The position numbers and the translations under genes were made by a program. Below, piece by piece: positions 1-17,596 of a stretch of DNA of 25,228 nt (position 1 is its first letter; each line of letters begins with the position of its first letter). The DNA lies in the IMG/VR virus record IMGVR_UViG_3300046450_000634, positions 1-25,228 of that record. One strand, written 5' to 3'. The DNA is from a virus. The notes beneath the pieces are model-generated. The model was not told the origin of the DNA. It saw only the letters and a list, made by a program, of their open reading frames with translations, and made no database searches.

Positions 1-303
1 TGTTACATCCTCAGGTGGAATAAGTTCAAGGTAATGTCTACCAGTTTTTGATGGTTTATTTCCATGAGTTTTATTATATACCATTCTATATAGTTTTTCT
101 GTTTTATCAAATTCGTAATTGGTATTAAAAAATAATGCTTTAACCTGTTTATGAGAATTATTCATCCAATCGATTTCTAATCTATAAAAAGATTTACGCA
201 TAACAAGTGCCGTAATAACGTCCATATTTGAAGTTCCTATTAGAACTCCGTTATTTCTACTGTCAATTATTAACCCGTATTGTGATGGAGCTGATGTAAA
301 CAT
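1..303 (-). CDS. Unknown protein, 3'-truncated by window edge
   Basis: An open frame starts with ATG at 303 and runs without a stop off the left edge, giving at least 101 residues. It begins MFTSAPSQYGLIIDSRNNGV and continues with a mixed hydrophilic sequence that contains YRLEIDWMNN and ends, as far as visible, in HYLELIPPEDVT. There is no signal peptide or membrane segment in the visible part. Its start overlaps the stop of the upstream cupin gene by one base (TAATG), so the two are very likely translationally coupled and part of one late operon that starts near 1240. I do not recognise the family. The reading as a real gene rests on the overlap, the long open frame and the codon use matching neighbours. 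Confidence 0.7.
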   Translation of the reverse strand, partial: MFTSAPSQYGLIIDSRNNGVLIGTSNMDVITALVMRKSFYRLEIDWMNNSHKQVKALFFNTNYEFDKTEKLYRMVYNKTHGNKPSKTGRHYLELIPPEDVT

Positions 304-953
304 TATTTAGATCCCATTAAATACGTTCTATTAAGCATAGTATGATTATCGTCAGTAGGTCCCCAATCGCCATCTGGATGATATGCAATAATTTTCATTT
401 CAGAATCAGTTGTTCTAAATCTATGATATTCACGTTCTTCAATACAAAAAATATTACCAGCTTCTAACAAATTATATACTCCATCTGCTAGTTCAGCAAT
501 ACCAGAACCACTTGCTACTAATCCTAATCTTACACTAGGATGGATATGAAACGTTTGATCAATTCCTTTAGGAAAGTGTAGAAGATTAACACTAGGATCT
601 CCAGCACGACTTGGATAGATTAATAAGCTATCACTGCACCCATCAATATAACAAAGACGGCCACTATCTTCAATTGGACCACCTAAGTTATTCTGATGCA
701 TATGTCCTAGTCTAGTAAAGAATACTGCTGTTCCGGTTACTGAAATACTGTATTCAGTTTTATCTGTGTAAGAAAAATATTCATTTGTTGTAGCAATCCA
801 GCCATTTGGCAATGTAACATTACCTGTTAACACAAATCCATATGTTGAACTATATGCTTCTGCATCCTTAGTGTCATCTGTTATGTTTTCTGCATATGAA
901 GGATACATTGTATTTCGTTTGTCAACAATCCCGGTTGATTTTAGTAGTTGCAT
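303..953 (-). CDS. Cupin-fold protein
   Basis: A 216-residue protein with a C-terminal cupin barrel. The first metal-binding motif is visible as FHIHPSVR (His136, His138) followed by a glycine-rich turn, and the second as GNIFCIEEREYHRF with His177; the usual glutamate of motif 1 is not obvious, so metal binding by three His or a variant site is likely. The N-terminal 100 residues hold another beta-rich stretch. Cupins of this size bind small ligands or act as dioxygenases or isomerases, and the substrate cannot be told from sequence. It lies 5 bases after the small exported gene at 959-1213 and overlaps the next gene by one base, so it sits mid-operon. The fold call is fairly safe; the role is unknown. 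Confidence 0.7.
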   Translation of the reverse strand: MQLLKSTGIVDKRNTMYPSYAENITDDTKDAEAYSSTYGFVLTGNVTLPNGWIATTNEYFSYTDKTEYSISVTGTAVFFTRLGHMHQNNLGGPIEDSGRLCYIDGCSDSLLIYPSRAGDPSVNLLHFPKGIDQTFHIHPSVRLGLVASGSGIAELADGVYNLLEAGNIFCIEEREYHRFRTTDSEMKIIAYHPDGDWGPTDDNHTMLNRTYLMGSK

Positions 954-1266: not shown

Positions 1267-2118
1267 TTAATTTAAAACTAAGAAATCTCCCCAATGCTCG
1301 TTAGAGTGCTTATAAAAACTATAATAACGATTCTCTAGATCTACTGGGACTTTCTTTATAAATTGTTGCTTTGATGATTTGTTTATCAAAGCAACCCTGT
1401 GAGGGCTAAATGCAATTGGTTCTAAATCTGTATTTGTTAAAATATCATAAAATAAACTCATCATCATCGGAAACTTAGGCAGTACATCATCTAAAATAAC
1501 AACAGACTGCTCGTGCATACAGTTTTCTAGGACATCATAAAATAAAGATTTATTTTCAAGATATCTACCAGCTGATAAATCAAAGGATACTAAATCATAC
1601 TTGTCATAGTGCAATTCAGTGTACATTGTCATGTTAGGTTTAGTAACATTAAATTCTAATGCTAATTTATCCCAGTACTGATTGAACTCATTAAGTGTGC
1701 TTGGTGGCAGGCCGTTATTAAACAATTTGGCAACATGAGGTTGTAAATTTTTCCATTCATCATATATAAATTGAGGTAGCCAATGCCCACTTAATTGCTT
1801 GTCTTGTTGTAAACAAACTACTAGCTCGTTTGTATAAAGCATGTTGTCTACTAAAGTCCATTCTGGTTGATAGACAGTGTTTGCTTTACGGCAGGCACCC
1901 TCAACAAAGAATGGTAAGCTACCAAAGAAGCTACCTAAGTCTAATATTTTTTTACTTGATTGGGAAACTGCTAGTATTGCAATAAATAAATTATCGATAA
2001 AAGATGCGTCATGTGGTACTAGCATACGCTTAGGATTTAAAAAAGCAGAACTGTCTAGATTATATAAGCCTTTATCAAATCCATCAAATCCGCGGCCTAA
2101 TTTTTCTATCTTTATCAT
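1267..2118 (-). CDS. Class I SAM-dependent methyltransferase-like protein
   Basis: A 283-residue protein with features of a Rossmann-fold methyltransferase. Motif I is seen as KILDLGSFFGSLPF (about residues 57-70), an acidic residue ends the next strand (WTLVDN, about 87-92), a motif IV-like strand appears as YDLVSFDLSAG (about 174-183) and a further strand as SVVILDDVLP (about 205-214). The glycine pattern of motif I is degenerate (DLGSFFG rather than GxGxG), so the protein could be a divergent methyltransferase or a non-catalytic relative. The substrate is unknown. The gene has its own late box at 2145-2138, a GAGGAAAT ribosome site just before ATG, and follows directly after tRNA-Thr. Confidence 0.55.
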   Translation of the reverse strand: MIKIEKLGRGFDGFDKGLYNLDSSAFLNPKRMLVPHDASFIDNLFIAILAVSQSSKKILDLGSFFGSLPFFVEGACRKANTVYQPEWTLVDNMLYTNELVVCLQQDKQLSGHWLPQFIYDEWKNLQPHVAKLFNNGLPPSTLNEFNQYWDKLALEFNVTKPNMTMYTELHYDKYDLVSFDLSAGRYLENKSLFYDVLENCMHEQSVVILDDVLPKFPMMMSLFYDILTNTDLEPIAFSPHRVALINKSSKQQFIKKVPVDLENRYYSFYKHSNEHWGDFLVLN

Positions 2119-2137
2119 ATTATTAAATTTCCTCGAA

Positions 2138-2145
2138 TATTTATA
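2138..2145 (-). promoter_or_regulatory. Late-type promoter box TATAAATA
   Basis: The minus strand reads TATAAATA, 19 bases before the ATG of the methyltransferase-like gene at 2118 and 4 bases after the CCA end of tRNA-Thr. The short leader still holds the ribosome binding site GAGGAAAT. Confidence 0.55.
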
Positions 2146-2149
2146 AGAA

Positions 2150-2225
2150 TGGTGCCGGCGCCAAGATTCGAACTCGGGACCTGATGCTTACAAAGCAACT
2201 GCTCTACCAACTGAGCTACGCCGGC
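2150..2225 (-). tRNA. tRNA-Thr (anticodon UGU)
   Basis: A 76-base cloverleaf with encoded CCA. The acceptor stem GCCGGCG/CGCCGGC is perfect, the D arm is GCTC/GAGC, the T arm is CCGAG-TTCGAAT-CTTGG with one G-T pair, and the seven-base anticodon loop TTTGTAA places UGU at 34-36. The anticodon stem GTTGC/GCATC has one T-T mismatch. It reads ACA codons, common in this AT-rich genome. Its first 10 bases overlap the end of the upstream protein gene, whose stop TAG is tRNA positions 8-10 of the gene. Processing of the tRNA would therefore cut that message. Confidence 0.95.
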
Positions 2226-2659
2226 ACTGAATATTCATAATTAATTGTCTCTTCGTTAACTTTATATATGACAGCTCCGTTCCTAAGATGGAACCTTTCA
2301 GCTATTCTTGTTTTTGGACTTAGTGTTACAAATCTTGTAATAGCTGTATTTTCTTTTAATATTGTGTCAACTGCATCAAAGATTATTTTTCTGCCGGCAC
2401 CTGGTTTATTACTCCAGATAGTATAAAAAATTGCAATCTTGTTATTGCCCGCTAGATTAAACAGTTCAGATTCTGACTTAGGAACTTCTTCTGAGTAGGC
2501 TACACATACTACTGCATTAAATTCGCCATTATCAGATACATCAACAAAGATGTCTTTATTTTCTCCAAGACGATCTTCTGCTTGTATACTGGGCCTAACC
2601 GGGTCGTTTAATAACTCTTCCCTAATTTCCGGCGTCAATTTCTCTACCTTGTTGATCAT
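2216..2659 (-). CDS. GNAT-like acetyltransferase domain protein
   Basis: A protein of 147 residues from the ATG at 2659; the frame is open to an ATG at 2713, which would add 18 residues (165 total) and overlap the upstream gene by 40 bases. I prefer 2659 because it leaves a 14-base gap and lies just after an AATAAATA box, though neither start has a good ribosome site. The C-terminal part (TRFVTLSPKTRIAERFHLRN, then a final strand ending NYEYSV) has the look of the last strands of a GNAT acetyltransferase, and the middle has VVCVAYS and KIAIFYTIW beta strands. The acetyl-CoA loop is not clear. The substrate is unknown. The stop codon lies inside the tRNA-Thr gene. Confidence 0.6.
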   Translation of the reverse strand: MINKVEKLTPEIREELLNDPVRPSIQAEDRLGENKDIFVDVSDNGEFNAVVCVAYSEEVPKSESELFNLAGNNKIAIFYTIWSNKPGAGRKIIFDAVDTILKENTAITRFVTLSPKTRIAERFHLRNGAVIYKVNEETINYEYSVPA

Positions 2660-2670
2660 CGTATTAAATA

Positions 2671-2678
2671 TATTTATT
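2671..2678 (-). promoter_or_regulatory. Late-type promoter box AATAAATA (weak case)
   Basis: AATAAATA on the minus strand overlaps the stop of the upstream gene (2674) and lies 11 bases before the ATG at 2659. If used, it would give an almost leaderless message. Confidence 0.35.
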
Positions 2679-3348
2679 CTTCTTTTGCTAATAGATTGCA
2701 TAGTCGTTCCCATGTATTTCTAGTACTTTTAGTTGTTTTGTCTACTACTTTACATGTTACTGTTATTCGTAGTCCGTCACCTTGTATAACATGATGAGGC
2801 AAGTCTGTTCTTACTAATGCACTTGAACACGAAGTAGCAGTAGACCAAATTGGTAGAGGAATCTTACTCCAATCCCGATGCTGTTGTTTAAACTCGACAA
2901 CCCAAGGCCAAGTATAATCAATAAAGTCATTACCGTCTAGATTTTTATGTATCTCCTCATATCCATCTGTAGTATCCGGAAACCATCTAACAATTCCAGG
3001 TGAGGTTGTTAATTCGTAAAAATTTAACCTAGTTTCTAATCTAGCAGAATCGCTATGTATATTCCAATCATAAGTGTTTGCATTAACAATAAAGATACCC
3101 ATTGTTTCTGCTTCTAAATTAAATTGGTCAAGGAATTTGTTTGCATGTTGACGAGTATCTTCTAACGGATCACCAGTCGAAGTTGCTGTATTAAACCACA
3201 ATCTGTCACTTAACGCATGTTTTTGTTTTAGATTTTTAATTATCCCGTTGTTAAGTTTATCAACATCTATTTTAGGAAGTGATAATGTAAGAGGTATAAA
3301 GAAATCTTTATGTGCTTGTACTGATTGTTCTAAACTGTCAGATACCAT
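2674..3348 (-). CDS. Putative Fe(II)/2-oxoglutarate oxygenase-like protein
   Basis: A 224-residue protein that I read as a divergent double-stranded beta-helix oxygenase. It has WNIHSDSARLETRLNFYEL around residues 96-112 with a candidate HxD pair (His98, Asp100), and a candidate distal His plus Arg in LPHHVIQGDGLRITVTCKVV (His185 or His186, Arg194). Such enzymes use Fe(II), O2 and 2-oxoglutarate to hydroxylate proteins, nucleic acids or small molecules. It overlaps the 3' end of the upstream AspH-like gene by 11 bases, so the two hydroxylase-like proteins are co-transcribed and may act together. The start is supported by AAGAAGAT upstream of ATG. The family call is moderate because only motif spacing supports it. 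Confidence 0.5.
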   Translation of the reverse strand: MVSDSLEQSVQAHKDFFIPLTLSLPKIDVDKLNNGIIKNLKQKHALSDRLWFNTATSTGDPLEDTRQHANKFLDQFNLEAETMGIFIVNANTYDWNIHSDSARLETRLNFYELTTSPGIVRWFPDTTDGYEEIHKNLDGNDFIDYTWPWVVEFKQQHRDWSKIPLPIWSTATSCSSALVRTDLPHHVIQGDGLRITVTCKVVDKTTKSTRNTWERLCNLLAKEE

Positions 3349-4069
3349 ATATCTTCTTCCGTGGTATTGGAAATCCGTCTATATGGTCGATGTACTGATC
3401 GTATAACTTGTGTTCAGTTGGAAGTCCGTGTAATATATGCAAGGCATTTTGAGAGCCAAATGGTAGAATACTACGTTCTGTATACTGAAATACTTCTTTA
3501 GGCAAAAAGTCTACTACTAAATGTAACCTATTTGTATCTCCGAGATTCTTAATATGTTGTTTCCTTTTATTATTAAAAATAAAACTATCTCCAACTTTAA
3601 ATTTAGGATCTTTGGACTCTGATGCAAATCTAAATAATACTTTATTATTTGTCTCTAATACAACATGACACCTTGTTGCGTAATCACTATAAAAATGATT
3701 ATCCGTATGTGGTAAAATACTTGCGCCAGGAAAAACCACATTTAATTCTGCACCAAATGGTATCCAATCTTTATGCTCTGTTGCCTTGTGTAAACTGACC
3801 CATAATTCTTTAACTATGTCGTTTGTTGAAGAGTGTAATTCTGATTGCATTAATCCAATAATGCTGTGATGATTAATAGGAGAATAATAAGGAACAAACG
3901 AACAATATGGAAATTTGTACCAACCACATTCTGCAAAGAAACTCTCGGACTTACGTTCTCTCCATACTGATTTGCTACGATAAAACGTATCAGTTAAGTT
4001 TTTTAATTGACCAGTACGAAAGACTGTTTCCAAATATTGATAATTTGGATATTGCTCAATAAGCGGCAA
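3338..4069 (-). CDS. Aspartyl/asparaginyl beta-hydroxylase (AspH) family oxygenase
   Basis: A 243-residue protein with the core of the AspH family. The sequence ASILPHTDNHFYSDYATRCH gives the Fe-binding His121 (with Asp123) and Arg133, and FKVGDSFIFNNKRKQHIKNL gives the second His172, followed by TNRLHLVVDF with Arg181 for 2-oxoglutarate. Family members hydroxylate Asp or Asn side chains in proteins, or free amino acids and lipids in bacteria. The start is TTG at 4069, 7 bases after a perfect AGGAGGG ribosome site; no ATG is close. That ribosome site forms one arm of a 9-base-pair hairpin, with a late-type box in the loop, which would allow translation only from late transcripts. The phage substrate is unknown. 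Confidence 0.8.
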   Translation of the reverse strand: MPLIEQYPNYQYLETVFRTGQLKNLTDTFYRSKSVWRERKSESFFAECGWYKFPYCSFVPYYSPINHHSIIGLMQSELHSSTNDIVKELWVSLHKATEHKDWIPFGAELNVVFPGASILPHTDNHFYSDYATRCHVVLETNNKVLFRFASESKDPKFKVGDSFIFNNKRKQHIKNLGDTNRLHLVVDFLPKEVFQYTERSILPFGSQNALHILHGLPTEHKLYDQYIDHIDGFPIPRKKIYGI

Positions 4070-7441: not shown

Positions 7442-7738
7442 TTATACAGTAATACCAAGTCCCTGTGCCTTATAGGCCAAGGCAACCATACGCCTAGAAG
7501 GTGTGCCATGTGTATATTCAGTAACAGCAACACCGTTTCCGGCTGTACGTTGGTTTGCATAGATAGCATAACCACGTTGGCGAATGTTCGATACAGTCGC
7601 GGTAGGATTTGCAATACCAAATCGCTTCTTAATTGCTGATTTAGTAAGAGCTTGCTTCTCTAGCACTAGTGCGTGAAAGAGCTTGCCTTGTTTTGTCTTA
7701 AGGTCGAAAGCCTTAATTGACTGGGTAGTTTTTGACAT
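7442..7738 (-). CDS. Small winged-helix/HTH-like DNA-binding protein
   Basis: A 98-residue basic protein. Residues about 15-62 have helix-turn-helix character: GKLFHALVLEKQALTKSAIK followed by a recognition-helix candidate NPTATVSNIRQRGYAIY, and then a beta-wing-like segment around GVAVTEYTHG. Such small proteins in T4-like marine phages are usually regulators of phage or host transcription. It is alone between two terminator-like or promoter elements, has AAAGGAAAAT as ribosome site, a strong sigma70 promoter (7789-7818) and a palindrome at the transcription start (7759-7781), which suggests early expression and self-repression. The DNA target is an inference. Confidence 0.65.
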   Translation of the reverse strand: MSKTTQSIKAFDLKTKQGKLFHALVLEKQALTKSAIKKRFGIANPTATVSNIRQRGYAIYANQRTAGNGVAVTEYTHGTPSRRMVALAYKAQGLGITV

Positions 7739-7821: not shown

Positions 7822-8880
7822 CTATTTTAGCCATTTTGCAATAGAATTGTCCGGATTGTAAAATAACGCTGAATCAAAATCTTTAAAATTAATACGGTTC
7901 ATATCTGTATCAATTGCACTAGCACTTTGGTGACCAAAATACAATGTAGTTGACTGGTGTTTGATTTTGTAATCATAATAACTTTGATCCTTAGTGTAAT
8001 CAAATATAATATCTTTGGGAACCAATTTTAAAGTTTCTTGAGAAGTTAAATTTGGTTTATGATTTACACTCCAATTTTGAAAATCATAAGAACTAAAGAA
8101 AGTTTGAAGCACATTACCTTTTGCAATCCTAGGCAAGAATTTAACTCCAATCATTTGCCATTTAAAATTAAAATTGTGCCACCAACACCAGTCAAACATA
8201 GTGCTTATAGGTCTAGGTGAAAACTTGGTAGTTTGGTGGTAAATTTCATAGATGCATTTATGAGTGTCTGAATCAGAAAGGCCCATAAACTCAAATACTC
8301 TAACAGTATTTTCATATGAATATGGTTCAAGTAATAAATCACGTTGTTGTCCTCTTAACAAAATATTTGCAAATGGAGAACCAAATAATTGATCAGCATG
8401 TTCAGAATTTACTATAGTTCCAGGTAAAACTCCTGCACTTGCTTTTAACATGAATTCTTCAGTAGCCATTATATTAAACTTACCTAAGATAAATTTATTG
8501 TAAAATAATGCATATTCTCTTACACTATCTTTATTGCATATAATAGTAATATTATCTAGTGGTACGTCTGCTTGTAAAAATGAGACTACAGAACATGTAC
8601 TGTCTATTCCTCCTGACCAAAGTAAATATATTTTATCATTTATATTAACTAACTCTTTGGCCCTATTAACGCAACACTCTTCAAAGGAAATTGCACTAGT
8701 ATTAAAGTTAGGTAATTCATATTCTGGTAGTAGTTTGGTATGATAATAGAAGTCAACAGTTTTAGTACGATCTATCAGAAATGCATTTGAATCATATTTC
8801 CACATATTATCGTATATAATGAGGTCGGCAGGAGAATTATTAGTTATAACCCGTTGGCCCTGATGATATATTAATTGCAT
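7822..8880 (-). CDS. Asparagine-synthetase-like PP-loop enzyme, copy 1
   Basis: A 352-residue protein with the N-type ATP pyrophosphatase PP-loop SGGIDS (89-94) after strand KIYLLW, and a second conserved block SEHADQLFGSP (159-169) that corresponds to the GEGADELFGGY region of asparagine synthetase. It lacks the N-terminal glutaminase domain (no Cys2), so any amine donor must come from elsewhere. A block DWCWWHNFNFKWQ (about 226-238) and the C-terminal LFYNPDNSIAKWL are shared with copy 2 at 9595-10647. Relatives adenylate a carboxylate and transfer it to an amine, as in asparagine, beta-lactam or lasso-peptide synthesis. Its ATG overlaps the stop of the partner gene at 8880 by one base. The substrate is unknown. 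Confidence 0.8.
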   Translation of the reverse strand: MQLIYHQGQRVITNNSPADLIIYDNMWKYDSNAFLIDRTKTVDFYYHTKLLPEYELPNFNTSAISFEECCVNRAKELVNINDKIYLLWSGGIDSTCSVVSFLQADVPLDNITIICNKDSVREYALFYNKFILGKFNIMATEEFMLKASAGVLPGTIVNSEHADQLFGSPFANILLRGQQRDLLLEPYSYENTVRVFEFMGLSDSDTHKCIYEIYHQTTKFSPRPISTMFDWCWWHNFNFKWQMIGVKFLPRIAKGNVLQTFFSSYDFQNWSVNHKPNLTSQETLKLVPKDIIFDYTKDQSYYDYKIKHQSTTLYFGHQSASAIDTDMNRINFKDFDSALFYNPDNSIAKWLK

Positions 8881-9602
8881 TACATTCCTGATCGTAATTT
8901 AAATTCTGCTAATGCTATTGTTTCTTGCATAAGACTTTGGTCGCTAAAATCTAATGAGTTTACATGTGATATAAACCATTTCCAATACGCATGTAAACGC
9001 ATAATTGTAATATTTGTAGAACTTACCACCATTTTACATTCTTGGTATGCTTGTTTAACTGGAAGGCCGGCTGAAATTGCCCAGGCTTCTAAACCAGGTG
9101 TATAATAATTGTTCTCAGGAATACATTTGTCAATTTCTGTAGTCATATAAGGAATAAACACATCATCAACAGTACTATGTACTACCCTGCCAGCATATCG
9201 TTCTAATTTTGTTTCAATTGAAGCTAATACATGCTGACGTCTATTTGCTAATTGTCTAGATACATTAAATTGTTCTGTAACATTATCCATTTTTTCTATA
9301 TCAAAAATAATTTCTTGCTCAGGAACTACTTTTGCTACGCTTAATTCTGCTGACGGAATAGCATATCCTTTTTCTGAACCAGATGTTGTTAATATATAAT
9401 TATTAGTTGAGCTTCTGTTATAATTTCTTATAATTTCATTGTGCTTTCCAGGAAGTTGTGCTACCATTAAAGACGAATTTGGTATGCCTTCTGCTAATGC
9501 GTTAATAACTGCTGGGCTAACTGAAACTGTTAGTATTCCAAATGTTTGTTGATCTACTAACATTGAGGATATATTTGCTTTTTTTGAAAATGTATCAAGC
9601 AT
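8880..9602 (-). CDS. Partner protein of PP-loop enzyme, copy 1
   Basis: A 240-residue protein of no family I know. It is homologous to the 215-residue protein at 10644-11291: both start ML.T, have VD..T.GILT near residues 17-25, IPN..LM about 20 residues later, an E.MD motif near the middle, and a C-terminal block FIPYMTTEIDKC followed by YTPGLEAWAISAGLPVKQAY (copy 2: FLPFIKRELEKC and YTDIIKDWAKIRGVDIKTAF). The N-terminal half looks beta-rich and the C-terminal half helical. It overlaps the PP-loop gene upstream by 8 bases with AAGGAGATT as ribosome site, and the one downstream by one base. It may present or bind the PP-loop substrate. Confidence 0.75.
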   Translation of the reverse strand: MLDTFSKKANISSMLVDQQTFGILTVSVSPAVINALAEGIPNSSLMVAQLPGKHNEIIRNYNRSSTNNYILTTSGSEKGYAIPSAELSVAKVVPEQEIIFDIEKMDNVTEQFNVSRQLANRRQHVLASIETKLERYAGRVVHSTVDDVFIPYMTTEIDKCIPENNYYTPGLEAWAISAGLPVKQAYQECKMVVSSTNITIMRLHAYWKWFISHVNSLDFSDQSLMQETIALAEFKLRSGM

Positions 9603-10647
9603 TAATTAATCTCCTTAAAGTATTATCTGCATTGTAGTAATCTATTAAATTTAGATCTCTTACAGGAATTCTATCCCATTTCTCGGTTAAACCTGCAGGT
9701 GAAGATAGGCTGTAATATAATGTAGATGAAGCAAACTTCTCTTTAGTTTTCCAATAGTTTCCATCTAATGTATAATCTAATATAATCTCTTTAAATTCTG
9801 ATTTTAAGTTTAAAACATTACCTGTTTGCTGTATGCTAGTATTTTGAAAATCATTACTAGAGTAAAAAGTAATAAGTTTAGTTGGATCTGCCATTCTAAC
9901 TGCTAATTTCATAGCTATTGTTTGCCATTTAAAATTAAATCCGTGCCACCAACACAGATCCCACATAGTCTTAATAGGCCTTGGACTTTTTTCAATAGTC
10001 ATATTGTAGATATTAATTAATATATCAATATGATATATTGGTACTCCTGCACTTAGTAAGAATTTCTCAAAATTTTCATCATTATAAGGAAGCCCTAACA
10101 TTGTTCTTCCTAGTTTCTTAGCAACCAAGTCTGAAATTGGTGATCCTACTAGCTGATCAGCATGTTCAGCTGATATTAACAATCCGTTAAATAAATTAGA
10201 CTGACCTACTAATAGCATTAATTCCTCTGTTGCTAATATTTGATAGGAAGGTAATATATTGGTTTTATAAAACCGAGGATACTCTTTAACAGAATCTTGA
10301 TTCAGTACAACTACTATTTGATCATTAGGTGCATGTTTCATAAAAGAAATAAGCATTAACGTACTATCAATGCCGCCGCTCCACATTACATATAATTTTT
10401 CTCCAGTCTTAACAAGTTCTTTAACCCTGTTGTCTGCACACTCTTGCCAAGATAAAGGTGTTGTTGTCGTTGTTAGCATTGGAAATATATTGTTTTCTGA
10501 AAACGGAAAAGATATTGTATCTGTTCTATCTACTAAGAAGGCATCTGCATCAATGTTAAACAAAGAACGAAATAACGTAATATCTTTATAATCATCATAT
10601 ATGTTAGAGTGTTTTAATTCAGTACTAAAGACATAATTTAATTTCAT
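9595..10647 (-). CDS. Asparagine-synthetase-like PP-loop enzyme, copy 2
   Basis: A 350-residue paralog of the enzyme at 7822-8880. It has SGGIDS (90-95) after KLYVMW, EHADQLVGSP in place of the asparagine-synthetase GADELFGG region, SPRPIKTMWDLCWWHGFNFK in the C-terminal half and a final YYNADNTLRRLI. Both copies share the N-terminal layout F-L-V/I-DRT (about 36-42) before the PP-loop. As in copy 1 there is no glutaminase domain. The two differ over most other positions, so the duplication is old or each copy was taken up separately and they may act on different substrates. The start is coupled to the upstream stop by ATGA. Confidence 0.8.
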   Translation of the reverse strand: MKLNYVFSTELKHSNIYDDYKDITLFRSLFNIDADAFLVDRTDTISFPFSENNIFPMLTTTTTPLSWQECADNRVKELVKTGEKLYVMWSGGIDSTLMLISFMKHAPNDQIVVVLNQDSVKEYPRFYKTNILPSYQILATEELMLLVGQSNLFNGLLISAEHADQLVGSPISDLVAKKLGRTMLGLPYNDENFEKFLLSAGVPIYHIDILINIYNMTIEKSPRPIKTMWDLCWWHGFNFKWQTIAMKLAVRMADPTKLITFYSSNDFQNTSIQQTGNVLNLKSEFKEIILDYTLDGNYWKTKEKFASSTLYYSLSSPAGLTEKWDRIPVRDLNLIDYYNADNTLRRLINA

Positions 10648-11291
10648 AAATGCACCTTGTTAGTCCAGGTGCTGTGTGCTTCTCTTATTGTAGACAATTC
10701 TTCCTTTACCTCAGTAGCTAACATACCAAATGCAGTTTTTATATCAACACCTCGTATTTTAGCCCAATCTTTTATAATATCAGTATATTCATCATTTTTA
10801 TAATCACATTTCTCAAGTTCTCTTTTTATAAAAGGTAAAAATATAGCATCTCCCATAAAACGTTTATCTTGGGCACTATCGGCTATTAGTTTTGTTTCAT
10901 TAATTCTATATTCGTATCTTAATTTAAATGCAAAATGCCGTGCTTCTATCCATTCTGGAGTAATGTCGTCTAGGTCCATTTCTTCTATACCATATATTCC
11001 TGGACCTTTAGTTGTTTTTACTATTTTTCCAAGGTTTGCAGTAGATGACGGCATTAGGCTGTTATGTGCTTTTACTAAAATAAAATTTGCATCTTCATTA
11101 AATTTTTCATGCATTCCTATAAGATTTAATATTTCGGCATTAGTTGATTCAATTATCATTAATTCTGCATTAGGTATAGTATAACAAATTGCATTTGATA
11201 AACTTACTGAATTACATAGAGTTAAAATTCCGTTGGTTACCGAATCTACTACTAGAAATTTATTATTCTTTAATGCATATGTTGATAGCAT
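10644..11291 (-). CDS. Partner protein of PP-loop enzyme, copy 2
   Basis: A 215-residue homolog of the 240-residue protein at 8880-9602, first gene of the four-gene operon. It shares VDSVTNGILTL (about 16-26), IPNAELMIIE, EEMDLDDIT and the C-terminal FLPFIKRELEKC block. The middle insert differs in length. There is no signal peptide. ATG at 11291 has no ribosome site and lies only 6 bases after a TATATT -10-like sequence, so the message could be leaderless or the start could be regulated unusually. The stop overlaps the next start as ATGA. Function unknown; tight pairing with the PP-loop gene suggests a direct partner. Confidence 0.75.
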   Translation of the reverse strand: MLSTYALKNNKFLVVDSVTNGILTLCNSVSLSNAICYTIPNAELMIIESTNAEILNLIGMHEKFNEDANFILVKAHNSLMPSSTANLGKIVKTTKGPGIYGIEEMDLDDITPEWIEARHFAFKLRYEYRINETKLIADSAQDKRFMGDAIFLPFIKRELEKCDYKNDEYTDIIKDWAKIRGVDIKTAFGMLATEVKEELSTIREAHSTWTNKVHL

Positions 11292-11338: not shown

Positions 11339-11499
11339 GCGGGTTTATTTGGTAACCACCCCTTTAATAGTGCTGATTTTATTGTAATCGGAATGTCAGC
11401 TACCGTCGGTTTCTCTGCTAATCTACTAAAGATGGCACAGGCTGTTTGACCAGGATTACCTCTTATTAATAAAGTTGTAAAACTGCTCGGCTGTGTCAA
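11323..11499 (-). CDS. Possible small protein with TTG start
   Basis: A 58-residue frame starting at TTG 11499 inside the end of the preceding gene, with a GGAG about 11 bases upstream, and ending at a TAG in the terminator stem. The translation (MTQPSSFTTLLIRGNPGQTA at the start, PTVADIPITIKSALLKGWLP later) has the composition of a real protein, and it fills the otherwise empty 117 bases between the 92-residue gene and the terminator. It overlaps the upstream gene by 44 bases in another frame. No ATG is available and no family is recognised, so the call is tentative. Confidence 0.4.
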   Translation of the reverse strand: MTQPSSFTTLLIRGNPGQTACAIFSRLAEKPTVADIPITIKSALLKGWLPNKPAESYG

Positions 11500-11734
11500 G
11501 AATTGCGGATACTCCTGGTACTTCTGGAAGTACCGTTGTCGAAATTACTTCGCCATTTTCTGCACGAACTGTAGTTTGTTCCCAGGCGCCAAACTTAGCA
11601 TGAAAGTCGTTCCATTCATGGGCATTGGCCATTTCTAAAACCTGTGTACGGATTTCATAGCCATTTTTATTAAATGACATTTTAGGAATTGATGCAGAAA
11701 TTGCATCATTAAGGTTCTTGATTGTATCAGACAT
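11456..11734 (-). CDS. Unknown small phage protein
   Basis: A 92-residue soluble protein without signal peptide or membrane segment. It begins MSDTIKNLNDAISASIPKMS and has a mixed alpha/beta composition with FHAKFGAWEQTTVRAENGEV in the middle and a helical end (AILDTAEQFYNFINKR). AGAAGGAGACAT is a strong ribosome site 8 bases or so before ATG, which suggests high expression. It follows the 2-oxoglutarate oxygenase in the same direction after a 59-base gap that contains a small hairpin. I do not recognise the family. Confidence 0.7.
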   Translation of the reverse strand: MSDTIKNLNDAISASIPKMSFNKNGYEIRTQVLEMANAHEWNDFHAKFGAWEQTTVRAENGEVISTTVLPEVPGVSAILDTAEQFYNFINKR

Positions 11735-11793: not shown

Positions 11794-12564
11794 TTAATTA
11801 TCGTTTAGATTAACCCTAAATGCTATTCTAACAGGCATCCCGTCGGAATCCGGTGCGTTCTTAAAACTTATATGATTCTGATCATGTCTATATACAATTA
11901 TTCTACCAGGTTTGTGGCCAACAATCTGTTCCGGGAATCCTATGGGATAACCACCTTTAGGATGAACTTCGCCGTCGTCTTGTTTGTCGCTATAAAAAAC
12001 ATATTCGGCGCCCCAACTTGGCAACCATTTTGAATTAGTAACAAACAATACAGTTGCATAATTATTTTTATCAATATAACCAGGACCACTATCTTTATGG
12101 ATATATCCAGGATTGTGATTTCTTATCTGTTGGACTCTTTTTGAACCTGATGACTTTGCATTCATATAACATGTCCAACCTTTAATGGTATTATCATACT
12201 CGTATTTGTCAAAGAAATTCTTACCGTCACTATAAGAGGTTCGTATACTTTTAAGTCCGCCAATGTCTTCAGGTATGCCATCTATATTTGCTTTGCCTCC
12301 TAGTACTTTATCGTTTATATCTTGAAACAAATTATAAATTAATGGATGCCTAGTTTTCACCATATCAGTACTATTGCCAAACGGGTGTCGTATTATGCCT
12401 CGTTCTCCTTCTCCTAATTCAGTGTTTAAAGGATCTAGTGTAGCATCATAATCGTTTAAATGACGTAATGCACTATACCAAGTATGATTACATGCATATT
12501 CATGAACTTCATTTTGCATTTCCTTACTAATTAATCCATCATACACATTAATAACTTTTTCCAT
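11794..12564 (-). CDS. Fe(II)/2-oxoglutarate-dependent oxygenase
   Basis: A 256-residue protein with a complete double-stranded beta-helix oxygenase signature: GYIHKDSG with His156 and Asp158 as Fe ligands, WGAEYVFYSD (184-193) where related enzymes have WGGEL, the third ligand His231 in DQNHISFKN, and VRIAFRVNLN with Arg246 or Arg250 to bind 2-oxoglutarate. It resembles prolyl-hydroxylase-like enzymes found in many T4-like marine phages. The target may be protein, nucleic acid or metabolite. AAGGAGATAC before ATG is a good ribosome site. It follows the tmRNA gene with no visible terminator, so read-through from the tmRNA promoter is possible. Confidence 0.8.
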   Translation of the reverse strand: MEKVINVYDGLISKEMQNEVHEYACNHTWYSALRHLNDYDATLDPLNTELGEGERGIIRHPFGNSTDMVKTRHPLIYNLFQDINDKVLGGKANIDGIPEDIGGLKSIRTSYSDGKNFFDKYEYDNTIKGWTCYMNAKSSGSKRVQQIRNHNPGYIHKDSGPGYIDKNNYATVLFVTNSKWLPSWGAEYVFYSDKQDDGEVHPKGGYPIGFPEQIVGHKPGRIIVYRHDQNHISFKNAPDSDGMPVRIAFRVNLNDN

Positions 12565-12609
12565 ATTTTTGTATCTCCTTAATTAATACATAGTAATTAA
12601 ATGGCACTT

Positions 12610-12861
12610 CTGTTTCTAGGCAGTTCCCGCCCAGAGCAATTATGCCGCTAGGGCAAAATCCTCAGATGCAAAATTATCGTTTGCAATTATCGTTTTGTTC
12701 GCGTTAACCGAGCTTACATCCGGACAACTCCACATTCCTACTACTTGCCAGTCGATCCTATTTCGCCCCCATCATAAGCACTCTCAGTAAAAGTGTTTAT
12801 GGTGGAGGCGCTGGGTACTGCCCCCAGGTCCTGTGCAACGTTTGTTATGCTTCAACATTGT
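12610..12861 (-). ncRNA. ssrA: Circularly permuted two-piece tmRNA
   Basis: Read on the minus strand, the acceptor piece comes first: T-arm CTGGG-GGCAGTA-CCCAG (12827-12811), acceptor strand CGCCTCC, then A and CCA (12803-12800). A 29-base spacer with a small hairpin follows, then the 5' acceptor strand GGGGGCG (12770-12764), which pairs with CGCCTCC and gives the G3-U70 alanine identity pair. Next come a D-like region, a pseudoknot-like region and the tag frame at 12684-12640: ANDNFASEDFALAA then TAA. A hairpin CTGGGC/GCCTAG (about 12633-12615) ends it. Part of the 5' coding region (CTGGCAAGT) can pair with ACGTTGCACAG of the acceptor piece to form P2. The order is that of alphaproteobacterial tmRNA. 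Outer ends are approximate. Confidence 0.93.
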
Positions 12862-12865
12862 ATAC

Positions 12866-12896
12866 TATTTATAGCACTATACTGCCTTAGAGTCAA
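12866..12896 (-). promoter_or_regulatory. ssrA: Promoter of the tmRNA, sigma70-type and late-type combined
   Basis: TTGACT (12896-12891), a 17-base spacer and TATAAA (12873-12868). The -10 is also part of an exact TATAAATA (12873-12866), so the same site could serve host sigma70 early and the phage late sigma later. The start would be near 12861. Confidence 0.75.
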
Positions 12897-12982: not shown

Positions 12983-13921
12983 TTACTTAAGATCTTGGAT
13001 CTTTTTAACTGTTCCCATTAGCTCAGGAAACATGTCATATACATGTGCTGTAGCTTCTTTGAAACGAGCTCTTTCTTCTTGTGACATTCTACGAACTTCA
13101 ATGCCATCGCTTTCAGCTTTAGCTTGTGTAAGTGCAACGTCTTCAATACTAATTACACGTTCGTAATTAGCGGCTACTTTAGCGGCGTCTGCAACAATAC
13201 CTTGTAGTTCTTCACCTAAATCTGCCCAAAAGTCCTGGTTGATTAAGATGCTTGTTAGGAACAATGAGTGTTCTGTGTGGTTAATAACCTTAGAAACTTT
13301 GTCCTGTCCTAGAGCATAGATACGTGGGTAAGTAGACTCACCTACTTGAATATCTTTGTCTTGGATTGCGTCTGTCATTTCTTCAAGTTCCATAGGAACT
13401 ACGTCTGCACCAACTGCTTTGAAAGTCTCAATAGCAACAGGTGAGAATGAAGTACGAAGTTTTAGACCTCTTAGATCTTCAATTCTTGAAACTTCTTCTT
13501 GTCCTGGAATAATTCTAAATCCACCGGAATATGTAAAGGCAAGACCTTTAACTCCAGCTGACTGAGAAAGTCCTGCTAGTAGTGATTCACCAATTGGGCC
13601 TTCGAACACTCTAGTTGCGTGGTCATGAGACTCAAATAGGAATGGCATATCTAATGCACGGAATTCGTGATCATATTCGCCAATATCTACTGTGTAAGTT
13701 TGTGACATTTCAATGTCACCTCTGTTAATCATATCAACAAGTTCGTGCTTAGTAACAACGATACCGTTATTATACTTTGCAGAATACTCATTCATTGTCA
13801 TAACTTCAATATCTAAAGCTCCGTTTGCTCTTGCATTAACTTCAGATGCAAAAACTTTTGCGGCTCTTAAAAACAATTCGATAGGCTCGTGTGCGAGTAC
13901 CCATTTAATATTCTTTGTCAT
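12983..13921 (-). CDS. DctP-like TRAP solute-binding protein without signal peptide
   Basis: A 312-residue protein with the DctP fold: LAHEPIELFLRAAKVFASEV as first strand and helix, a central ALDMPFLFESHDHATRVFEG block, FTYSGGFRIIPG, LRGLKLRTSFSPVAIETFKA (the conserved Arg region that binds the ligand carboxylate) and a helical C-terminus. Unlike normal DctP it starts directly at strand 1 (MTKNIKWVLAHE) with no signal peptide, so it should stay in the cytoplasm. The start at 13921 is supported by AAAAAGGAGT upstream; the longer frame to 14020 has no ribosome site and still no signal peptide. It stands between two terminators, with a late box CATAAATA at 14031-14024. A similar protein lies at 17597-18703. 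The role inside the cell is unknown. Confidence 0.82.
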   Translation of the reverse strand: MTKNIKWVLAHEPIELFLRAAKVFASEVNARANGALDIEVMTMNEYSAKYNNGIVVTKHELVDMINRGDIEMSQTYTVDIGEYDHEFRALDMPFLFESHDHATRVFEGPIGESLLAGLSQSAGVKGLAFTYSGGFRIIPGQEEVSRIEDLRGLKLRTSFSPVAIETFKAVGADVVPMELEEMTDAIQDKDIQVGESTYPRIYALGQDKVSKVINHTEHSLFLTSILINQDFWADLGEELQGIVADAAKVAANYERVISIEDVALTQAKAESDGIEVRRMSQEERARFKEATAHVYDMFPELMGTVKKIQDLK

Positions 13922-14023
13922 TATAGACTCCTTTTTCTTAAGAAAAACAATTCTGCTACTGCAAAATTGTAGAAAGTTTTCAGCTTTTTCCGATAAGGTA
14001 TTAGACTGAATTCTATCCAAGTG

Positions 14024-14031
14024 TATTTATG
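14024..14031 (-). promoter_or_regulatory. Late-type promoter box CATAAATA
   Basis: It lies about 100 bases before the start at 13921 and just after the terminator at 14062-14092, so it can make a separate transcript for the DctP-like gene with a leader of nearly 100 bases. Confidence 0.5.
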
Positions 14032-14061
14032 CATTTATGACAAATATAGAAATAATAGCCA

Positions 14062-14092
14062 AAAAAATAGGATGCATAAGCACCCTATTTTT
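14062..14092 (-). terminator. Terminator after the TRAP operon
   Basis: On the minus strand AAAAATAGGGTGC pairs with GCATCCTATTTTT (one G-T) around TTAT, followed by more T. It lies about 20 bases after the stop of DctP at 14113. Confidence 0.85.
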
Positions 14093-14112
14093 AACGTTAT
14101 ATGCTTTTAAAC

Positions 14113-15207
14113 TTACTTTTTCTTCCAGTAGTAGTCTGCGGCATAGTTATAAGGCGTAAATGCTACGTTCTTAAATGGAACTACTTTCCTTGCCCATGCT
14201 TTCTGAGAAGCAAGTACTTTTGCAAAATAAGGATCCTTAGCGGCATTTTCTGCTAACATGATATCAATAGTTTCTAACTCAGCAACCAGAATATCTGCTG
14301 GAGTTTTCATAACTCTAATTCCATGCTCTTTAATCATTCTAGCAAGTGCTTGACCATTCTTTGCTTGAATGTCAGTTAACCACCATAGATATGATTCATA
14401 AGAGGCAGAACGAATTGCTGTCTGCTGTTGCTTACTCATTGAACGCCATACTTTACCATTAAGTAGTAAATCACCAGTATTTGAGTGCTCATGCAATGAA
14501 TTCAAGTAGTAGTATTTCCATACTGTAGGAAATCCAAGACGTTCGTCTTCGAGACCGCCAACAAATTCAGCACAATTAATAACTCCTTTTGCGGCCGCTG
14601 CCATGATCTCACCACCTGGCATACCGATAGTCTGCATACCCATTCTAGCATATAATTCTACGTTGGCGCCAGTTTGACGACATTTAAAATTCTTAAGATC
14701 TGCTAGATTCTTAATTGGTCGATGGAACCAACCTAATGGCTGATTCTGTGCTGGCATAACTGGAAAAGGAACAACATCTAATTTAAGTTCATTCTTATAG
14801 AAGTCGTTATACAATTCAAGTCCACCACCGTGGAACATCCAACCTAGGAAGTCGATCCCGTCCATACCGTAAGGTCCACCTAAAGGACTATTAAATAGTG
14901 CAAGAGTCTTTGACTTTCCGACCCAGTAATAAGATTGCGTCCATGCACCATCTACTGCACCTGACGCTGTAGCATCTAGCACCTTAAAAGAAGGAACTAA
15001 TGCACCAGACGGTCTGATTTTCATATCAATTTTTCCGTCTGTTAAAATTTTAACTCTGTCTGCGAGAAAGTTTGCTTGCTCGTTAAAAGTTGAGATTGCT
15101 CCAAAACTAGATGCAATCTGTAGTTCTTTGGCATTAACTGTTGCTACTGAAGCAAACATGCCAAATGACATTGCGGTAGCTAATACCGCTCCGATGAAAC
15201 GTTTCAT
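14113..15207 (-). CDS. dctP: TRAP transporter solute-binding protein, TakP-like
   Basis: A 364-residue periplasmic binding protein. The start at 15207 gives a standard signal peptide (MKRFIGAVLATAMSFGMFAS..VNA, cleavage near residue 26) and has GGAGAATAAAAAT upstream; the frame is open to 15279 but that would add 24 residues before the signal. The mature part matches the TakP group known for 2-oxoacid uptake: GGGLELYNDFY, LGWFHRPIKNLADLKNFKCR with the ligand-binding Arg, MPGGEIMAAAAKGVINCAEF and the WKYYYLNSLHEHS segment. It would capture a monocarboxylate or oxoacid and deliver it to DctQM. It is the third gene of the TRAP operon, 19 bases after DctM. The exact substrate is inferred only from family likeness. 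Confidence 0.92.
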   Translation of the reverse strand: MKRFIGAVLATAMSFGMFASVATVNAKELQIASSFGAISTFNEQANFLADRVKILTDGKIDMKIRPSGALVPSFKVLDATASGAVDGAWTQSYYWVGKSKTLALFNSPLGGPYGMDGIDFLGWMFHGGGLELYNDFYKNELKLDVVPFPVMPAQNQPLGWFHRPIKNLADLKNFKCRQTGANVELYARMGMQTIGMPGGEIMAAAAKGVINCAEFVGGLEDERLGFPTVWKYYYLNSLHEHSNTGDLLLNGKVWRSMSKQQQTAIRSASYESYLWWLTDIQAKNGQALARMIKEHGIRVMKTPADILVAELETIDIMLAENAAKDPYFAKVLASQKAWARKVVPFKNVAFTPYNYAADYYWKKK

Positions 15208-15226
15208 ATTTTTATTCTCCAAAATA

Positions 15227-16621
15227 TTATTGTCCAAGGACACCCAAAAAGTCAACTTCTTGGCCTTTGACATCATCACCTAGTACTTCTTGTACTACGT
15301 TTTTTCTTTGCTCTGCTAGGTAATTAGGTAACCACGTTGCAAGGCCAGGCGTAATAAACAATATTACTACACAAATAACCTGAATATACATAAACGGCAT
15401 CATTGCTTTGAATATTAATTTAAGGTCCCACGAAGGCACCACCTGTTTTAGATAGTATCCAGTTAAAGCCACTGGAGGTGTTAGATATGCTGTTTGTAAA
15501 ATAACACCCAAGGCGGCCGCAAACCAAATTAGATCAACTCCAGTATCAATTAATACTGGTAAGAATATTGGTAAGAACACTAGTACTACCACTGGCCACT
15601 CAAAGGGCCAGCCTAAAATATGACATAACACTAATATAGCTCCAACTACTGCCCATCCGGGTATGGGCAAAGAAGTTAACACTGATACAATGATTTTGTC
15701 ACCACCCAAGGAAGCAAATACAGCACCAAAGATTGTTGATGTAATTGCTAATAACATTACCACAGCCGAAGTATTGGTTGTTTTTAATAATGCTTCTTGA
15801 ATATTTGTTAAAGTTAATTTTCTGTTAATGGCGGCTAAACATAAGGCGCCAAACGCACCAAACGCACCAGCTTCTGTGCTAGTTGCTAGTCCAAATAACA
15901 TTGATCCTAATGTAATAAGAATCAATGATGCCAATGGTACAACATGCCATAACAATAACATAATTAACTTAAAATCTATTTCTACTCTTTCTTCTAGAGG
16001 TACCGTAGGTGCTACCCCTGGTTTTGTTTTTATAAGGAATACAACGTATACTAGATACATAAATGCAATTAGTAATCCTGGACCTATTGCGGCCGCATAC
16101 ACATCAATAATATTAAGATTCATTGTGGGCGCCATTACAATAAGCGGAATGGATGGAGGAATCATAATAAGAGATCCACCTCCTGCAATTACTCCTGCTG
16201 ATAGTTTAGCATCATACCCTTGTTTAATCATACTTGGAGCGGCCATAATGCCCAATAACGTTACTGATGCTCCGACTACTCCTGTTGCTAAACTGATCAA
16301 TACTGCAATACAGATAACAACAATGTATAAGTTGCCTGGAACACCAGACAATACCTTCTTTAAACTCTCAAATAAATTCTCTACCAGTCCGGCTCGTTCA
16401 GCAACGTAACCCATAAGGATAAACATAGGAATACTCATTAGCACTTCGTCTGAAAGTCCTCCTAATAGATTGAGATATGTAAGATCAAAAACACTTAATC
16501 CTAATCCCATCAATCCAAAAATTAATGCTAGAAATGTTAGTGTAAAACTAACTGGAACTCCAACAAAGATGCCAGCAATCATTGTAAATAACATTGTCAT
16601 TGCTAGCCATTCATTACTCAT
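15227..16621 (-). CDS. dctM: TRAP transporter large membrane subunit
   Basis: A 464-residue, very hydrophobic protein with about 12 membrane segments, the normal size for DctM. Typical features are the GVPVSFTLTFLALIFGLMGL start, GGGSLIMIPPSIPLIVMAPT in the middle, the STEAGAFGAFGALCLAAINR loop and AYLTPPVALTGYYLKQVVPS near the end. It forms the sodium-driven channel subunit with DctQ in the inner membrane. It overlaps DctQ by 8 bases; AGAAGGA about 10 bases upstream serves as ribosome site. The gene is intact with no frameshift, so a working transporter is plausible. Several Ala pairs are coded GCGGCC or GCCGC rather than with GCA or GCT. Confidence 0.93.
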   Translation of the reverse strand: MSNEWLAMTMLFTMIAGIFVGVPVSFTLTFLALIFGLMGLGLSVFDLTYLNLLGGLSDEVLMSIPMFILMGYVAERAGLVENLFESLKKVLSGVPGNLYIVVICIAVLISLATGVVGASVTLLGIMAAPSMIKQGYDAKLSAGVIAGGGSLIMIPPSIPLIVMAPTMNLNIIDVYAAAIGPGLLIAFMYLVYVVFLIKTKPGVAPTVPLEERVEIDFKLIMLLLWHVVPLASLILITLGSMLFGLATSTEAGAFGAFGALCLAAINRKLTLTNIQEALLKTTNTSAVVMLLAITSTIFGAVFASLGGDKIIVSVLTSLPIPGWAVVGAILVLCHILGWPFEWPVVVLVFLPIFLPVLIDTGVDLIWFAAALGVILQTAYLTPPVALTGYYLKQVVPSWDLKLIFKAMMPFMYIQVICVVILFITPGLATWLPNYLAEQRKNVVQEVLGDDVKGQEVDFLGVLGQ

Positions 16622-17111
16622 TATTGAAAATCCTTCTATAACATTTAATCATCTGACTCAAGGCTTGTATCATTAGAAGTACTAAGCCAAGTGTAATGCC
16701 AATCTTCATTGGCCATATAACAAGCTGAGCCATTGTTTCAGAACTACGTTCGTTCATTTCAATAGCGGCATATGTGTCGTTAAAACTAATGTATGTGATA
16801 AGTGCAAAGGAAGGGAAGAATAATAAGATATAACTTATAAAGTCAATAATTGCTTTTGTACGATCTTTATAGTTGCTCCAGAATAAATCTGTTCTAATAT
16901 GTGCTTCTTTGCCTAGAGAATAACTGCAACCAAACATAATAAGCATACCGTATAGTTGCCAGGTTGTATCGACTACAAAATCATTACGAATGTCAAAGTA
17001 ATACCTTCCTAGTACGTTAGTTACTACGAAAAGTACCATTAGTAATGCAAACCACGAATAGAATTTCGCAAATCTGCTTACAATATTGTCAATAAATTGT
17101 GTTACTTCCAT
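16614..17111 (-). CDS. dctQ: TRAP transporter small membrane subunit
   Basis: A 165-residue protein with four membrane segments (about residues 15-35, 47-65, 88-108 and 130-152), the usual DctQ layout. Signature pieces are FVVTNVLGRYYFDIRNDFVV and LGKEAHIRTDLFWSNY, the latter being the conserved HIRTDLF type motif between segments 2 and 3. It pairs with DctM to form the membrane part of the transporter. It is first in the operon. The leader of over 100 bases from the late box at 17222-17215 contains two hairpins; the ribosome site is a weak AAGAG, so translation may be tuned. Confidence 0.9.
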   Translation of the reverse strand: MEVTQFIDNIVSRFAKFYSWFALLMVLFVVTNVLGRYYFDIRNDFVVDTTWQLYGMLIMFGCSYSLGKEAHIRTDLFWSNYKDRTKAIIDFISYILLFFPSFALITYISFNDTYAAIEMNERSSETMAQLVIWPMKIGITLGLVLLMIQALSQMIKCYRRIFNNE

Positions 17112-17131
17112 CGACCAACTCTTTTAACCGT

Positions 17132-17187
17132 TTTGCTTTCTATAAGCAAAGTTTGTTATTATGTTTGATTGTTCAAAACAATCAAAC
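17132..17187 (-). promoter_or_regulatory. Two hairpins in the TRAP operon leader
   Basis: First a perfect 11-base stem GTTTGATTGTT/AACAATCAAAC with a 3-base loop (17187-17163), then a perfect 7-base stem TTTGCTT/AAGCAAA (17150-17132). Neither has a T tract behind it. They may stabilise the message or control dctQ translation. Confidence 0.5.
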
Positions 17188-17214
17188 TGATACATCATAA
17201 CATTAGTTATATGC

Positions 17215-17222
17215 TATTTATA
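17215..17222 (-). promoter_or_regulatory. Late-type promoter box TATAAATA for the TRAP operon
   Basis: Exact TATAAATA about 100 bases before the dctQ ATG at 17111 and 26 bases after the stop of the cold-shock gene. Confidence 0.55.
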
Positions 17223-17248
17223 CTGGCTATTAGCCATTGTAAATAAAT

Positions 17249-17470
17249 TTACTCTGATTCTATAAGAGTTATGTTGGCGGCTTGACGACCTTTATCACCT
17301 TGAACTACTTCAAATGATACTGCTTGGCCTTCTTTAAGAGATTTAAAACCATCAGAGTTGATTGCTGAATAATGAGCGAAAACGTCATCTGATCCATCGT
17401 CAGGTTTAATAAAACCCCAACCCTTTGCGTCTTGAAACCATTTTACTTTACCTGTTACTTGTTCTGCCAT
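17249..17470 (-). CDS. Cold-shock domain RNA/DNA-binding protein
   Basis: A 73-residue CspA-family protein from the ATG at 17470, preceded by GGAAGAAG; the frame is open 15 residues further but that part does not fit the family. RNP1 is visible as KGWGFI (16-21) and RNP2 as DVFAHYSAI (29-37), with the usual GKVKWF start and a [12 protein letters not shown] end. Trp replaces the more usual Phe in RNP1, as in some alphaproteobacterial members. It binds single-stranded RNA or DNA and could act as RNA chaperone or antiterminator during infection. It has its own GATAAATA late box at 17529-17522 and lies directly before the TRAP operon. Confidence 0.93.
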
Positions 17471-17521
17471 GTGTGTACTTCTTCCATTAATGTTGTAATG
17501 TGTTGTTATACACATTAACTT

Positions 17522-17529
17522 TATTTATC
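17522..17529 (-). promoter_or_regulatory. Late-type promoter box GATAAATA
   Basis: It lies 51 bases before the cold-shock ATG and about 10 bases after the structured terminator of the upstream gene. Confidence 0.5.
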
Positions 17530-17538
17530 AAACTAATA

Positions 17539-17583
17539 GGCTAGACAGGGTATTAGAATCATTCTAAATTGCCCCATCTAGCC
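17539..17583 (-). terminator. Nested-stem terminator or RNA end after the 368-residue DctP-like gene
   Basis: The outer arms GGCTAGA/TCTAGCC (7 pairs) enclose a GGGG/CCC stretch and an inner perfect stem TTAGAAT-G-ATTCTAA. It lies 13 bases after the stop at 17597. There is no long T tract, so it could be a processing-resistant 3' end rather than a classic terminator. Confidence 0.6.
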
Positions 17584-17596
17584 CTGTTTTTATTAC

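Follow-up and report, generated by a model that had tools for sequence, protein, structure and literature searches.

Asparagine synthetase B (PF00733; PDB 1ct9, 8sue) and its relatives are the closest described systems to a set of paired genes that we analysed in IMG/VR virus record IMGVR_UViG_3300046450_000634. The analysed stretch of 25,228 nucleotides (positions 1 to 25,228 of that record, called the window) comes from a marine T4-like phage, for which near-identical longer contigs of 116 kb and 67 kb were found. It encodes two PP-loop enzymes, each with a partner protein, and a cupin; loci and contigs used for comparison carry L numbers. The phage enzymes share with asparagine synthetase B the predicted fold of the synthetase half (Z 11-12) and the motifs SGG.DS and GE..D..FG, whereas they have no glutaminase domain and no PF00733 match, are accompanied by a dedicated partner gene, and possess their own N-terminal 65-80 residues and the C-terminal blocks WWH.FNFKWQ and DFQ.WS. 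Beta-lactam and carbapenam synthetases are AMP-forming, ring-closing relatives of asparagine synthetase that use no ammonia. They (PDB 1jgt, 1q15) resemble the phage enzymes in fold (Z 10-11.5) but retain a vestigial Ntn domain and lack a partner. The best fold match is the hydroxyamidotransferase TsnB9 (PDB 7ylz; Z 12.4), and asparagine synthetase-like peptide amidating/nitrile enzymes such as PesC act on peptide C-termini (PMC13060819). Both TsnB9 and PesC differ from the phage enzymes in belonging to natural-product clusters and using glutamine-derived ammonia, with no homologous partner and no reported cupin or DctP context.

For the partner protein, the nearest described proteins are those with DUF4376, which are tail-fibre chaperones in Alteromonas phages V22 (gp27) and A5 (gp9) (PMC7289586, PMC10579305). 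They are of similar length, their C-terminal domain is likewise placed and one of their models gives a weak fold match, but they show no sequence match to the partner and are not paired with an enzyme. Besides, a cyanophage secondary-metabolite cluster (PMC7824862) is also a phage-borne tailoring gene set with cupin-like and 2-oxoglutarate (2OG)-Fe enzymes, but its core consists of carbamoyl transferases and a halogenase, and no PP-loop pair was reported in it.

Gene pairs and the PP-loop enzyme

The four genes at 7822-11291 are all open reading frames on the minus strand and form two homologous pairs of partner and PP-loop enzyme, as the original prediction had described. The first gene of the operon encodes partner protein A (P0004, 215 residues; 10644..11291), followed by PP-loop synthetase A (P0003, 350 residues; 9595..10647), partner protein B (P0002, 240 residues; 8880..9602) and PP-loop synthetase B (P0001, 352 residues; 7822..8880), and consecutive genes overlap by 1-8 bases. 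The two synthetases are 39% identical (332 residues, E 2e-75) and the two partners 28% (E 4e-21). Compared with the nearest relative (L003), the ratio of nonsynonymous to synonymous substitution rates is 0.20-0.35 for all four genes (0.20 for synthetase B, 0.35 for partner A), which indicates purifying selection; therefore, all four are maintained as proteins.

Both motifs named in the original prediction, SGGIDS and EHADQL.GSP, occur in both window enzymes. SGGIDS lies at residues 90-95 of synthetase A (10363..10380, minus strand), where it is invariant in the 30-sequence alignment A3, and at residues 89-94 of synthetase B (8599..8616, minus strand). The SGG.DS motif is intact in these two and in most family members (100 of 108, a count biased upward by search patterns that favoured WSGGI), and the conserved motifs of the enzyme are SGGIDS, S..E and GE..DQ.FG. 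The acid block GE..D..(F/L)G follows the PP-loop (E161 and D164 in P0003), and its columns align to a PF00733 protein: the family profile places WSGGIDST and GELGDQLFG on the matching blocks of such a protein, whose gene neighbours the bacterial copy L093.

For P0003, AlphaFold2 gave a model with a mean predicted local distance difference test score (pLDDT) of 91.6 and a predicted template modelling score of 0.91 from the 30-sequence alignment. In VIA-align, this model was closest to TsnB9 (Z 12.4), human ASNS (11.8), beta-lactam synthetase (11.5), AsnB (11.3) and carbapenam synthetase (10.4), while GMP synthetases (about 9) and then LarE (about 8) ranked lower. The N-terminus of 65-80 residues had no glutaminase match, as had been predicted. 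Motifs and predicted fold together bear out a PP-loop enzyme of the synthetase type whose ATP site is intact, and from the model it very probably belongs to the asparagine synthetase type. No family in Pfam, PHROG, NCBIfam, PADLOC or PDB describes the enzyme; the expectation that it lies outside public family libraries thus agrees with the lack of a curated match in those searched. The anti-phage defence models of PADLOC-DB matched none of the eight proteins compared with them.

Partner protein, pairing and insertion site

The AlphaFold2 model of P0002 (pLDDT 81.9) combines a beta-beta-alpha-beta part at the N-terminus with a helical part at the C-terminus. Searches of Pfam, PHROGs, NCBIfam, PADLOC, PDB sequences and PDB folds returned nothing confident for the partner. 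In a viral structure library, two unnamed phage proteins matched its model well (E 2e-8 and 2e-6), whereas the match to one DUF4376 model was weak (Foldseek E 0.12, probability 0.99, TM-t 0.61, 128 columns). PF14301 matched no partner from 18 contigs even at E<=10, which speaks against membership of the partner in DUF4376. The blocks VD..T.GILT and (F)(I/L)P(Y/F)...E(I/L)(D/E)KC, proposed earlier as shared features of the partners, hold within the close clade, but only nine columns are invariant in an alignment of nine partners. The last residues of the partner overlap the next gene and are conserved in subclades only (LRSG). In profile comparisons, the A2 set of partners showed no significant match to the small overlapping proteins of sets A7 (L046-type) and A8 (L036/L027/Xanthomonas-type), so common ancestry with them is not claimed, while the A9 set (L098/L116-type) is related to the A2 partners, largely via its third-pair members.

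The pairing of partner and enzyme recurs outside the window, and genes of the partner family precede PP-loop genes in L003, L004, L007, L008, L010, L025 and L026. Partners occurring widely apart from PP-loop genes, which would have counted against the original prediction, were not seen, as each partner locus found in the scans had a PP-loop neighbour. For 12 pairs, the distances between partners are correlated with those between enzymes (r 0.77, a value reached in 0 of 10000 permutations), and the partner tree and the enzyme tree show the same grouping of the a, b and c copies. Between the window and L003, partners are 43-65% identical and enzymes 60-79%, so that the partners diverge faster.

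The operon occupies a syntenic site between two conserved phage genes on the minus strand, one upstream (11456..11734) and one downstream (7442..7738, with a weak winged-helix match), and a sigma-70-like promoter is found at 7818-7789. In relatives, these genes enclose 0, 1, 1.5 or 2 pairs: the site is empty (58-130 bp) in L036, L120, L121/L122, L123 and L125, holds one pair in L007 and L010, partner-enzyme-partner in L004/L005, and two pairs in the window and L003. Such variation at one syntenic site means that the pair moves as a unit. Mirrored distances and varying copy number sustain the earlier idea of a fixed pairing kept through duplication, and partner and enzyme are likely to act as a complex. 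At 9031-9750 in L004/L005, an orphan second partner follows the intact first pair, the second enzyme being apparently lost, and both flanking genes are retained.

Cupin linkage and distribution of the family

The system extends beyond 7822-11291, the coordinates given in the original prediction. A cupin of 216 residues (303..953, minus strand) belongs to it too, and the longer contig contains a third pair: in the 116-kb contig the cupin overlaps the third partner, which is followed by the third PP-loop gene (order cupin-partner-PP in G001). Three metal-type histidines of the cupin (135, 137 and 176 in A4 numbering) are invariant in 18 of 18 sequences and correspond to the HxH...H metal site of a Cupin_2-like domain. 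The window cupin has a Cupin_2 match just under the cut-off (E 8e-6), and its best PDB relative is BacB (E 2e-5). The window's 116-kb virus has four PP-loop family members and a related 244-kb contig has six. Two PP-loop genes of another type (13461-14771 and 14771-15718 of L098) come after the third pair in the window's virus, with relatives in L008 and L106. Next to the cupin, at 1267-4069 of the window, there are apparent tailoring genes (methyltransferase-, acetyltransferase- and Asp/Asn hydroxylase-like), and similar sets exist in L005, L120, L121 and L123.

Phage lineages with a cupin beside family members are the window group, L114/L115, L116/L117, L118/L119, L124 and L126/L127. In bacteria the cupin, which the original prediction had not connected with the enzyme, is its recurring associate: cupin homologues adjoin the enzyme in most bacterial loci, and most bacterial genomes carrying the enzyme (19 of 26) have a strong cupin match. 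Among 249 Flavobacteriaceae, the only genome with a strong cupin match is the one with the enzyme, which is consistent with co-occurrence on the basis of one positive genome.

Alignment-based scans gave 43 viral loci and 37 loci in bacterial genomes. The family is found in many uncultured phages (marine and other), one cultured Pseudomonas phage and the chromosomes of Bacteroidota, Pseudomonadota, Verrucomicrobiota and Planctomycetota. The bacterial loci are commonly short operons of enzyme, cupin and a small lineage-specific protein. This protein is of the 127-residue type in 11 loci, most of them from Bacteroidota and one from Desulfobacteraceae, whereas in seven Lewinella-like loci it has 154-171 residues and an N-terminus of membrane type. 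Reading these loci, without a systematic search, we saw no small conserved precursor peptide beside the bacterial copies. In the cultured phage Cygsa01 (L058, PP179332.1), two genes annotated as tRNA 2-thiouridylase MnmA are family members; probably only the PP-loop underlies this annotation, and the published paper on this phage does not mention these genes.

In the window, 12983..13918 (minus strand) encodes a DctP-type solute-binding protein (PF03480, E 1.1e-54) with no evident signal peptide. It counts as genomic context, and any part in the module would be hypothetical; its relatives adjoin PP-loop genes in other phages. It is part of a group of tripartite ATP-independent periplasmic (TRAP) transporter genes at 12983-18703, which includes three DctP-type genes (two without an evident signal peptide) and DctQ- and DctM-like genes. 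TctC/TctA genes for tripartite tricarboxylate transporters are next to PP-loop genes in phage contigs (L098 12538-13464, L025 4118-5077, L037 2633-3598 and L033 453-3064), and genes like prokaryotic amino-acid receptors or binding proteins stand beside bacterial enzyme-cupin operons (L063 8959-10011 and L078 9886-11004). At 3-1814 of L053, a collagen-like repeat protein and the enzyme share a single reading frame, by natural fusion or by coincidence of frame. In a prophage-like tail cluster of Xanthomonas (L081 6242-11580; L066), a polyproline protein, a 199-residue protein, the PP-loop enzyme, the cupin and a 2OG-Fe hydroxylase-like gene are in a row. Besides, ARAGORN predicts in the window a transfer-messenger RNA gene (12549-12895, marked as the permuted type) with the tag ANDNFASEDFALAA, which overlaps the start of a 2OG-oxygenase-like gene.

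Proposed function and alternative explanations

Our best explanation, which we hold tentatively, is that each pair is a two-subunit AMP-forming synthetase that adenylates a carboxylate on a substrate selected by the partner. As the fold and motifs suggest, the PP-loop subunit would bind ATP through SGGIDS and adenylate the carboxylate, after which an amine or ammonia would displace AMP to form an amide bond; since the enzyme has no glutaminase, the nucleophile may be free ammonia or another amine. The partner would be dedicated to targeting, recognising a substrate that bears an acid or amine group and presenting it; this role is suggested by the overlap of the two genes, by their fixed pairing and matching divergence, and by their joint insertion. 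Where a genome has several diverged pairs, these could handle different substrates or successive steps, and the cupin, where present, probably tailors the same product, because it is adjacent in both phages and bacteria. The modules probably join or amidate an acid-bearing substrate. The likeliest candidates are an amino acid, another organic acid, and a small peptide or protein that the infected cell produces.

Several observations weigh against this explanation. Foldseek matches of the enzyme model are weak (E about 0.002-0.01), and P0001 and P0003 have no PF00733 match at E<=1, the best family member reaching 14 bits against a cut-off of 21. The ATP motif is lost in PP-loop copies of L050 (4446-5537), L052 (2862-3971) and L054 (4565-5617). 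The A2-type partner is not recognisable in several phage loci and most bacterial ones, so the family does not strictly need it. Four cupin lineages (L120, L121/L122, L123 and L125) have no adjoining PP-loop gene; two of their contigs match the PP-loop family elsewhere, one of them weakly. Each of the motif-less copies adjoins an intact copy, so they are possible pseudoenzyme partners.

A possible, though doubtful, alternative is a small-molecule pathway (auxiliary metabolism, a signal or an antibiotic). In it, the synthetases and the cupin, together with the products of the solute-binding or transport genes, would produce or consume a small organic or amino acid, and the partner would be an accessory subunit of the ordinary kind. 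This explanation and the tail-fibre one below overlap the two-subunit synthetase explanation and differ from it mainly in substrate; our gradings of them refer to the specific target claimed. Among the Pfam families found beside phage PP-loop genes, DctP and TctC are the most common, and they lie closer than chance: of the 12 contigs having both, 7 have such a gene less than 1 kb from a family gene (2.3 expected, p 0.002). An Asp/Glu racemase with a GltP-type symporter (L027) or amino-acid permeases of the ATP-binding cassette type (L026) are beside the enzyme in phages, and amino-acid-receptor-like genes are near bacterial copies in L063, L074 and L078. The cupin fits as well, as cupins are usually small-molecule enzymes. 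However, the neighbour genes vary between loci, the enrichment of DctP and TctC is moderate (p 0.001-0.015 depending on the measure), and import is not an obvious role for the many phage DctP-like proteins that, read by eye, show no evident signal peptide at their start.

Tail-fibre modification, in which a chaperone-like partner brings a fibre protein to the synthetase and amidation or ligation alters the phage adhesin, is unlikely. The distant resemblance of the partner model to DUF4376, a family of tail-fibre chaperones in Alteromonas phages, suggests such a role, and fibre genes are frequent neighbours that flank family members in several phages (L037, L043, L050, L052, L055, L057 and L058). 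The enzyme in frame with a collagen-like repeat in L053 points the same way, as does X. albilineans, where the genes come after a polyproline protein inside a tail cluster. On the other hand, the partners have no PF14301 match, the nearest recognised tail gene is about 8 kb from the window's pairs, and the bacterial chromosomal copies have the cupin and a small protein, mostly without tail genes. A link to virion tail fibres, which the original prediction would have counted against itself, is possible. Overall, the context clues are split between a small acid and a virion protein as the substrate.

It is quite unlikely that the partner itself is the substrate, as a carrier protein or a protein like the ribosomally synthesized and post-translationally modified peptides, whose terminus or side chain the enzyme amidates, cyclises or loads. 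One dedicated partner per enzyme and the faster divergence of the partner would fit this, and known asparagine synthetase-like enzymes modify peptide C-termini (PMC13060819). However, the partner is folded (pLDDT 82), and exceeds the usual precursor size with its 215-240 residues, and its end, which overlaps the next gene, is conserved in subclades only.

An improbable combination is that several pairs of synthetase and tail-fibre-chaperone-related adaptor chemically alter different adhesins of the virion, or make a small molecule that the adhesins carry; if this were true, receptor-binding tips would carry non-standard chemistry made during infection. Modification of tRNA or nucleotides of the TilS/MnmA/QueC/LarE kind, a substrate also proposed in the original prediction, is highly improbable: it could draw on the automatic mnmA annotation in Cygsa01 and on weak QueC-like PHROG and LarE matches, but these span about 20-75 residues around the PP-loop (under 50 for the QueC-like ones), the best LarE model scores 19.4 bits against a cut-off of 150, no tRNA or cofactor PP-loop profile (MnmA, TilS, QueC, LarE) exceeds its cut-off, and we set it aside because the fold comparison puts asparagine synthetase-type enzymes clearly first.

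In conclusion, the catalytic fold is known, while the libraries and literature searched contain neither the family and its partner nor the insertion site with modular copy number or the cupin linkage. The two- and three-gene cassettes are small and their ATP site is intact, so they should be easy to express and their chemistry is directly testable. They represent an undescribed branch of asparagine-synthetase-type enzymes, accompanied by a dedicated partner and, recurrently, by a cupin.

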